Part shown: positions 31,948-33,767 of the stretch, in pieces
Position numbering within the stretch: position 1 is the first letter of the stretch
How the letters are laid out: every line of letters starts with the position of its first letter
Origin: Bacteroidetes bacterium GWF2_35_48
GTDB taxonomy: Bacteria; Bacteroidota; Bacteroidia; Bacteroidales; GWF2-35-48
Length of the DNA: 64,000 bases
Assembly: GCA_001769125.1 (NCBI GenBank)
Contig: MEOG01000041.1
Coordinates: forward strand, 62,001-126,000
Direction: 5' to 3'
Program-made: the position numbers and the translations under genes
Notes under the pieces: generated by a model
Database searches by the model: none
What the model saw: only the letters and a program-made list of their open reading frames with translations
Told to the model about the DNA's origin: nothing

Positions 31948-32297
31948 TTATTATTTCTCTTAATTTGATGAACAATCAACGACAAATCCCACCGGTTTTC
32001 ACACAAAGTCAGACAGAATTATTTTCTATCTTTAATCCGACACTTACTTTTTTAATCGCTGCGGCGATCTTAATCCAAAGTCTTCGTTTTCCAGCAAACC
32101 AGTGAGAATAACTTCCCACATGCTTCCCACAATACCTCACAGGATTGCTTAATACTATTCTGTTTTCCAAAATTGCCCTTCCCATTTTATACGCTTTTAA
32201 ACCAATTTTTTAACGACTCACGAGCCCAATAAAAACAGTCAATCAATTGCTTGTCAAATATTTAATTGATACGCATCAAAAAAGTTATTAACAAAAG

Positions 32298-32332
32298 TGG
32301 GAAAAAGTGGGGGACAGTGTTGGAAAGTGGGG
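32298..32332 (+). promoter_or_regulatory. MraZ operator: TGGGN direct repeats at 10-base period
   Basis: TGGGA (32298), TGGGG (32308), TGTTG (32318) and TGGGG (32328) follow each other at exactly 10-base steps. MraZ of E. coli and other bacteria binds TGGGN repeats separated by 5 bases, so three of the four sites match and the third is degenerate. The array overlaps the -33 element of the mraZ promoter, as expected for autorepression of the dcw operon. Confidence 0.85.
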
Positions 32333-32349
32333 AAGAATTTCTATTTTTG
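32320..32349 (+). promoter_or_regulatory. Promoter of the dcw cluster (mraZ)
   Basis: TTG (32320-32322), 19 bases, then TATTTTTG (32342-32349). The -33 element lies inside the degenerate third operator repeat. The ATG at 32373 follows 23 bases later. Confidence 0.7.
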
Positions 32350-32372
32350 ACAAGATTTTTAAAACCGGCGAC

Positions 32373-32852
32373 ATGACAACATTTATCGGCGAACATCCCT
32401 GCAATGTTGATGTAAAAGGCAGAATACTGCTGCCTTCTGCATTAAAGAAGCAAATGAGCTCTGAGGCCAAAGAAGGCTTCGTTGTCCGAAAAGATATTTT
32501 CGAAAAATGTCTGGTTTTATATCCGATGGATGAGTGGGAAATTCAGGTAAAAAGAATCAGAAGCAGGCTTAATCCTTACAACCGTGAGCACAACAAACTG
32601 TTGAGGGAATTTTACAAAAACACTGCGGAACTGGCATTGGACAGCGCGAACCGGATTCTTATTCCAAAATACCTGATGGAACTTATCGGCGCATCAAAAG
32701 AAGTAATGCTTCACGGCACAGACAATAAAATTGAAATCTGGAGTAAAGAAGCGTACCAGATGGGAATTACAGATGAGGAAGATTTTGCAAAACGCGCGGA
32801 GCAATTCCTGGGCGACAAGTTTGAAAATCTTAGTGAACTCCTTAACGATTAA
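32373..32852 (+). CDS. mraZ: Transcriptional regulator MraZ
   Basis: 159 residues from the ATG at 32373. Two SpoVT/AbrB-like swapped-hairpin repeats are visible: MTTFIGEHPCNVDVKGRILL at the N-terminus and the second with LDSANRILIPKYLME (about 90-104). MraZ forms a ring and binds TGGGN repeats upstream of its own operon. An upstream in-frame ATG at 32307 would add 22 residues, but it lies within the operator and before the -7 box, so I reject it; 159 residues is also close to the 152 of E. coli. rsmH starts 12 bases downstream. Confidence 0.95.
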   Translation: MTTFIGEHPCNVDVKGRILLPSALKKQMSSEAKEGFVVRKDIFEKCLVLYPMDEWEIQVKRIRSRLNPYNREHNKLLREFYKNTAELALDSANRILIPKYLMELIGASKEVMLHGTDNKIEIWSKEAYQMGITDEEDFAKRAEQFLGDKFENLSELLND

Positions 32853-32864
32853 GATCCGATAATT

Positions 32865-33767
32865 ATGAGCATCTACCACACTCCGGTTCTGTTGAAAGAA
32901 AGCATTGAAGGACTCAACATCAAACCGGACGGTGTCTACGTAGATGCCACATTCGGAGGGGGAGGACATTCACAGGAAATTCTGAAAAAGCTTTCAATAA
33001 AAGGGAAAATTCTGGTTTTTGACCAGGATCCCGACGCTAAAATAAACCAGCTACACGACAACAGGGTTATCTACGCACAGGCAAACTTCAGGTTTCTTAA
33101 AAACTTCCTGAGATACCATGATATTGAAGAGATAGATGGCTTGCTGGCAGACCTCGGTGTGTCGTCCCATCATTTTGATTCGGAAAAAAGAGGGTTTTCC
33201 TATAGGTTCGACAGTACGCTTGATATGCGCATGAACCCGAATCAGAGAGTTACAGCAGAAGTTCTTTTAAATACATATTCAGAAGCGCAGCTTAAAAATC
33301 TGTTTGAAAAATACGGAGAAATCAATAATGCAAAAACAATCGCCTCTGTAATTGTTGCTGAACGGCAAAAAACAAAAATTGATTCTGTAGTGACTTTGAA
33401 AAGTACACTCTCGGCATATATCCCAAAACAAACGGAAAACAAATATCTGTCGAAACTCTTTCAGGCGCTGAGAATAGAAGTAAACGCAGAAATAGATTCT
33501 CTGAAAACCCTTTTGCTGAGCGCATCGGATGTGTTAAGCGAAGAAGGACGTATTGCTGTAATAACGTATCACTCAATAGAAGACAGATTGGTAAAAAACT
33601 TTTTTAAAAACGGAAAATTTGAAGGAGAGGCAGAAAAAGATATTTATGGAAAAACAAGTTTGTTGCTGATACCTGTAAACAGAAAAGTGATTATTCCAAC
33701 AGATGAAGAAATTGAAAGAAACCCAAGAGCGCGTAGCGCAAAATTAAGAATTGCACAAAAAGCGTGA
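32865..33767 (+). CDS. rsmH: 16S rRNA (cytosine-1402-N4) methyltransferase
   Basis: 300 residues. It opens with YHTPVLLKESIEGL and the SAM-binding motif VDATFGGGGHSQEIL (about 27-41). Then come DQDPDA, the conserved GLLADLGVSSHHFD (about 95-108), RGFSYRFDSTLDMRM, and the C-terminal TYHSIEDRLVKNFFK and NPRARSAKLRIAQK. It methylates N4 of C1402 in 16S rRNA near the P site. It overlaps the following ftsL-like gene by four bases (GTGA). Confidence 0.97.
   Translation: MSIYHTPVLLKESIEGLNIKPDGVYVDATFGGGGHSQEILKKLSIKGKILVFDQDPDAKINQLHDNRVIYAQANFRFLKNFLRYHDIEEIDGLLADLGVSSHHFDSEKRGFSYRFDSTLDMRMNPNQRVTAEVLLNTYSEAQLKNLFEKYGEINNAKTIASVIVAERQKTKIDSVVTLKSTLSAYIPKQTENKYLSKLFQALRIEVNAEIDSLKTLLLSASDVLSEEGRIAVITYHSIEDRLVKNFFKNGKFEGEAEKDIYGKTSLLLIPVNRKVIIPTDEEIERNPRARSAKLRIAQKA

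Follow-up and report, generated by a model that had tools for sequence, protein, structure and literature searches.

In E. coli K-12, three GTGGG boxes in 10-bp steps precede mraZ, the first gene of the dcw cluster, and follow promoter-like hexamers (TTGACA...TAAACT, located by eye); this mraZ operator was reportedly described by Eraso in 2014. Mollicutes carry AAAGTG[G/T] direct repeats, likewise in 10-bp steps before mraZ, and MraZ complexed with a four-box promoter has been deposited, according to the entry titles (PDB 9r4j and 9sz7). The mollicute site has been written as (AAAGTGKN3)3 (PMC5282649) or AAAGTG[T/G] (PMC8475190), in both cases in passages quoting Fisunov 2016. A further site is reported from E. 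coli: in the mioC promoter, MraZ is said to bind a sequence that overlaps a DnaA box (PMC4446571).

The window analyzed here, a stretch of 64,000 nucleotides from Bacteroidetes bacterium GWF2_35_48, contains a dcw cluster headed by mraZ and followed by rsmH, and four 10-base units run without a gap from 32294 to 32333 in front of it (Table 1). Box sequence, 10-bp step, and position before mraZ are shared with the described systems. The window differs from Mollicutes in phylum, in that its array lies upstream from a Bacteroidota-type -7 element, and in the presence of a conserved TTATTAACA element 5′ of box 1. In E. coli, the boxes follow the promoter hexamers, whereas those of the window precede the -7 element. 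The sequence-only reading had proposed three TGGGN sites and one degenerate site; on rechecking, TGGGA at 32298, TGGGG at 32308, and TGGGG at 32328 were exact in their coordinates, the degenerate site proved to be TGTTG at 32318, and all four stand in 10-bp steps. The array thus shows every sequence feature expected of the MraZ operator that had been postulated at the dcw promoter.

Table 1. Coordinates of the features at the mraZ locus, numbered from the first nucleotide of the window
Feature	Coordinates	Strand	Basis
AAAG-TTATTAACA, DnaA-box-like	32281..32293 (9-mer 32285-32293)	+	conserved position, 83/99 loci
MraZ box 1, AAAGTGGGAA	32294..32303	+	coordinates rechecked; arrays conserved
MraZ box 2, AAAGTGGGGG	32304..32313	+	coordinates rechecked; arrays conserved
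MraZ box 3, degenerate, ACAGTGTTGG; contains the TTG proposed as -33	32314..32323	+	intact in same-genus genome, TTG absent there
TTG, proposed -33 element, weakly supported	32320..32322	+	same spacing in 13/92 loci
MraZ box 4, AAAGTGGGGA	32324..32333	+	coordinates rechecked; arrays conserved
TATTTTTG, putative -7 element of housekeeping promoter	32342..32349	+	fits TAnnTTTG consensus; fixed spacing to boxes
mraZ, start ATG 32373	32373..32852	+	TIGR00242 100.8 bits, cut-off 98.35; structure match
rsmH (mraW), next dcw cluster gene	32865..33767	+	TIGR00006 311 bits, cut-off 154.3

The window contains a single match to TGGG-N6-TGGG-N16-TGGG, and 100 dinucleotide shuffles produced none. In the whole genome (5.98 Mb), RTGG-N6-RTGG-N6-RTGK-N6-RTGG gave three matches, with GTGG cores only at the mraZ array; the other two were of the ATGG type and lay on one other contig (C81). 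A search for three AAGTGG units in 10-bp steps with up to three mismatches gave 12 matches genome-wide, against five for the reversed-pattern control: two, with two mismatches, were the mraZ array itself, nine fell within a single tandem repeat on contig C99, and one, with three mismatches, lay on contig C137. No second MraZ array with at most two mismatches to this triple unit was therefore found elsewhere in the 5.98-Mb genome, and the notion of a larger MraZ regulon was dropped, as the remaining matches were the 10-bp tandem repeat and the single three-mismatch site. The tandem repeat, at C99:11115-11306 on the minus strand of the window's genome (G000), is made of AATTGGCTTT and is unrelated to MraZ.

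Conservation was followed in three sets of relatives, which are not independent samples. At least three in-register boxes preceded mraZ in 21 of 29 same-order genomes (0.3% of shuffles), in 75 of 79 named loci drawn from the best 80 of at least 420 confirmed candidates, a set skewed to close relatives (0.1% of shuffles), and in 21 of 50 phylum-wide loci (0% of shuffles). At least two were present in 49 of the 50 phylum-wide loci, and two or more appeared in 4 to 7% of shuffled upstream regions. For the same-order set, 33 genomes matched and 30 gave loci, including the window's own; one named locus (L099) was dropped for want of upstream DNA; and the phylum set combined 30 loci returned automatically with 20 chosen to spread over families, from 186 matching genomes. 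Duplicate upstream regions were removed inside each set, and across sets two pairs (L016/L140 and L020/L141) look identical. Pooling the 29 same-order loci, the 79 named loci (from the best 80 of at least 420), and the window gave 109 loci, 99 with three or more boxes and 10 without; among all loci, those in which no array is visible include L023, L024, and L105. At one locus (L019), the region about 60 to 95 nt upstream from mraZ reads AAAGTGGGAG-AAAATCCCAA-AAAGTGGGAG, with a middle box that looks inverted. The window and dinucleotide shuffles, together with conservation well beyond shuffled levels, rule out that the repeats arose by chance. Because the array is kept in register before mraZ, with shuffled frequencies of 0.1 to 0.3%, we identify the four boxes from their sequence as an MraZ operator, which is already a known kind of site and whose presence here extends the known pairing of MraZ with its site to this Bacteroidota lineage.

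A second conserved sequence, AAAGTTATTAACA, lies directly 5′ of box 1, outside the coordinates of the sequence-only reading and absent from it. An unbiased count of 8-mers upstream from mraZ in the 29 same-order loci placed TATCAACA first (11 loci against 0.1 expected), above every word from the MraZ boxes. Of the 99 pooled loci that have at least three boxes, 83 carry TTWTYAACA beginning 41 to 44 nt 5′ of the last box core, as TTATTAACA in 43, TTATCAACA in 21, TTTTCAACA in 18, and TTTTTAACA in one, and AAAG precedes it in 76 of the 83 (named part: best 80 of at least 420). Broken down by set, the 83 consist of 11 same-order loci (of 22), 71 named loci (of 76; best 80 of at least 420), and the window; the named set, which is skewed to close relatives, thus supplies most of the count. 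Where box 1 has been lost, leaving three boxes, the element persists in 44 of 48 loci, in 41 of these 44 at the same 41 to 44 nt (named part: best 80 of at least 420), and it stands mostly 56 to 60 nt upstream from the -7 element. AAAAAAGTTATTAACA is identical in the same-genus genome, the window having one extra A before box 1. At the level of sequence, this DnaA-like box is conserved in the same-order set as strongly as the MraZ boxes.

DnaA appears, from the sequence comparisons, to be the likeliest reader of AAAG-TTATTAACA. The 9-mer departs from the E. coli consensus (TTATNCACA, or TTWTNCACA) by an A for C at position 6 and equals a box form from another bacterium: TTATTAACA is given as a putative DnaA box upstream from dnaA in Mycoplasma hominis (PMC2751442). 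TT(T/A)TCAACA is described as a mollicute DnaA-box motif in a paper that itself voices doubts (PMC3322544), and TTATCAACA is listed as a putative DnaA box in the origin of Cyanothece (PMC4674748). These published 9-mers are identical to the window's and putative, and as far as those sources describe them they lie near dnaA, in dnaN, or at oriC, whereas that of the window lies in a dcw promoter. We weighed against DnaA the alternative that AAAG-TTATYAACA is read by a different protein, or that RNA polymerase contacts it as an A/T-rich upstream element, and regard this as a strong competitor with a chance a little short of even. It would account for the mismatches between the window site and E. 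coli TTATCCACA at two of nine positions and for the near-palindromic character of GTTATTAAC, which could suit a dimer; it fits poorly with the variants at the dcw site, which differ where DnaA boxes vary and three of which, out of four, have been named putative DnaA boxes in the bacteria just cited.

Genes of the replication machinery pointed in both directions. Upstream from dnaA in 30 same-order genomes, TTATYAACA was enriched: there were 18 occurrences, whereas 200 shuffles averaged 1.3 and never exceeded 5. This argues for DnaA; an unbiased 8-mer count of the same regions put other words first and TTATTAAC fourth, with 11 of 30 loci where 2.35 were expected, which favors a different reader. 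So does dnaN: of 27 upstream regions, four contain sites for the true pattern and two for the reversed one, three more loci having been dropped as too short. For both genes, the start was placed approximately, at a Met early in the longest open frame. Outside the order but within the class, the canonical TTWTNCACA occurs within 200 nt upstream from mraZ in 8 of 14 loci (shuffled mean 1.2, maximum 3, 40 shuffles), which again speaks for DnaA, with the reservation that six of the eight come from one family and are thus not independent. Other classes of the phylum gave a weak signal for the two box forms (5 of 36 and 4 of 36 loci, against shuffled means of 1.55 and 1.2). The C termini of DnaA, compared by eye, read DHATV in 28 of the 30 genomes, DHTTV in one, and DHSTV in one. 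In view of the consensus mismatch, the fourth rank in the unbiased count upstream from dnaA, and the weak signals at dnaN, in other classes, and in the window's own genome, we call the element DnaA-box-like.

We propose tentatively, and with slightly less than even confidence, that the Bacteroidales dcw promoter could be a composite switch, in which a DnaA box at a fixed place beside the MraZ operator would bring the replication initiator and MraZ to one promoter, where the two proteins would compete or cooperate. If true, this would couple the initiation of replication to the transcription of division and cell wall genes in a whole bacterial order, and the DnaA-like box, if real, would connect chromosome replication with the expression of division genes through a molecular link open to direct test. 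To our knowledge, no link of this kind is known for this group. The mioC promoter of E. coli offers a precedent for proximity of MraZ and DnaA sites, since both occur together there; that gene lies beside oriC and not in the dcw cluster, and site and box overlap, whereas the array and box of the window stand side by side (PMC4446571). In the literature searched, which takes in a minority of subscription journals, we found no account of a Bacteroidota dcw promoter that carries a DnaA box.

Box-like sites were also sought at possible replication origins. Published accounts vary: the Prevotella intermedia oriC was predicted from E. coli boxes with one mismatch allowed, Blattabacterium is described as being without dnaA boxes, and the Melioribacter origin paper gives its boxes in a figure. 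Pairs of TTATYAACA located no origin in the window's genome (three places against two in the reversed control). Upstream from dnaA in that genome (L202), four copies of TTATTAACA lie within about 180 bp, and a same-genus genome (L201) has three box-like sites at matching distances. Three-box clusters of TTWTCMACA occurred in 9 of 119 same-order genomes, some of them built of TTWTCAACA, against 2 of 119 in the reversed control; in one such genome, mixed clusters of TTATCCACA and TTATCAACA precede dnaN-like and parA-like genes (L169 and L178, by eye). In the same-genus genome there is also a stretch of about 160 bp (L251, 1439-1595; L262) with five DnaA-box-like sites, TTTTCCACA among them; it lies at the 3′ end of a gene judged by eye to be arginase-like, and the window's genome retains two of the five. 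This region is a possible origin region; over 30 genomes, the arginase-like flank gave 16 sites against 5 in the reversed control with no shared cluster, and we therefore claim no origin there. In four other same-order loci (L170, L171, L172, and L176), TTATCCACA, TTTTCCACA, or TTATCAACA is repeated in 12-bp steps in three to six copies; some of these repeats may be coding, since at L170 and L176 they fall within long open frames or run across them. TTATTAACATAACACATGTTTTTATTAACA is present in seven copies in the same-genus genome G001 (L253, L254, L255, and L257-L260) and is probably a repeated element.

The putative -7 element of the dcw promoter fits TAnnTTTG, the -7 consensus of Bacteroidota housekeeping (sigma-ABfr) promoters (PMC7366714). 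The motif by itself is not unusual: TAnnTTTG occurs 82 times on the two strands of the window, and TTG-N19-TAnnTTTG, the arrangement of the proposed -33 TTG and TATTTTTG with a spacer of 19, four times on the plus strand. Between 32100 and 32372 of the plus strand, TATTTTTG is the sole TAnnTTT[GA], and the promoter is credible because of its location and conservation, not because of motif rarity. A -7-like element, called by a loose pattern, was found in 95 of the 99 pooled loci with three or more boxes; in 92 of these it begins 14 to 16 nt past the core of the last box (named part: best 80 of at least 420), and in the window 15 nt past it. The earlier proposal that the repeats cover the -33 element held in part. 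The boxes do cover the -33 region; the TTG itself is not conserved, and stands 22 nt upstream from the -7 start in 13 of 92 loci (named part: best 80 of at least 420), although TTG is more frequent there than at any other position from -34 to -13. Compared with TTTG, the -33 element of sigma-ABfr promoters, the window has GTTG, matching three of four letters, and in the same-genus genome an intact box 3 reads GTGGCT, without TTG. Conceivably, the window's box 3 was given up to create a -33 element. The array ends 9 nt before the -7 start, so that it lies wholly upstream from the -7 element. At many phylum loci outside the window's class (L033-L062 and L143-L162), the boxes follow a TTGACTTT-like promoter, as seen by eye; since they stand after the promoter there and in E. 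coli, and before the -7 element here, the position of the operator differs between lineages.

Very probably, then, positions 32294 to 32333 form a four-box MraZ operator inside the dcw promoter, through which mraZ and the genes behind it would be repressed. MraZ, the product of the first gene of the cluster, would bind the 10-bp direct repeats, all of which face one side of the helix, as an oligomeric ring. Bound MraZ would cover DNA from 9 to 48 nt upstream from the -7 start and hinder RNA polymerase at 32342-32349, limiting transcription of mraZ and the downstream genes; the mRNA would start a few bases past the -7 element. The repeats, the failure of the genome-wide searches to turn up a second such array, the conservation, the spacings among boxes, -7 element, and ATG, and the identity of the protein were observed; the binding of MraZ and its ring on operator DNA are what we infer. 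By analogy, the most likely outcome is that MraZ lowers transcription of its own operon, a reading favored because the MraZ proteins of E. coli and Mycoplasma genitalium have been reported as repressors (PMC8475190). Since the operator lies wholly upstream from the -7 element, unlike that of E. coli, MraZ might instead activate the promoter or only tune it. This is improbable in our estimation, although activators usually bind where these boxes lie, the geometry is conserved, and the rarity of a clear -33 TTG would suit an activator-assisted promoter; the same source links the filamentation phenotype in a study of M. gallisepticum MraZ to increased FtsZ (PMC8475190). Besides the reported repressors, the coverage by boxes of the -33 region, where sigma would sit, argues against activation and for repression.

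By its sequence and its modeled structure, the protein encoded behind this promoter is MraZ. In an alignment of 19 MraZ proteins (window and 18 relatives), D13-x3-R17 and D90-x3-R94 are invariant, and we take these two D-x3-R motifs to be DNA contacting. The predicted structure (mean pLDDT 88.3) matched MraZ in a Foldseek search (PDB 9qlg, E 7e-12) as well as PDB 9sz7, a cryo-EM entry whose title names M. genitalium MraZ together with a four-box promoter. An mRNA starting just past the -7 element would be translated from ATG 32373, and the operator and promoter analysis thereby gives the correct mraZ start. This agrees with the earlier preference for ATG 32373 over the longer frame from GTG 32307, as do the starts of homologues and the distance from the -7 start to the start codon, which is 27 to 33 nt in 84 of 95 loci (named part: best 80 of at least 420) and 31 nt in the window; the conserved distance settles the point for ATG 32373. 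That the protein begins at GTG 32307, with the repeats as coding sequence, is almost certainly wrong: the frame is indeed open from there, but homologues begin where ATG 32373 stands, the repeats are kept as DNA in a 10-bp and not a 3-bp register, and the promoter with its conserved -7 element would fall inside the gene. From GTG 32307 to 32373, the only other ATG, GTG, or TTG in this frame is ATG 32373 itself.
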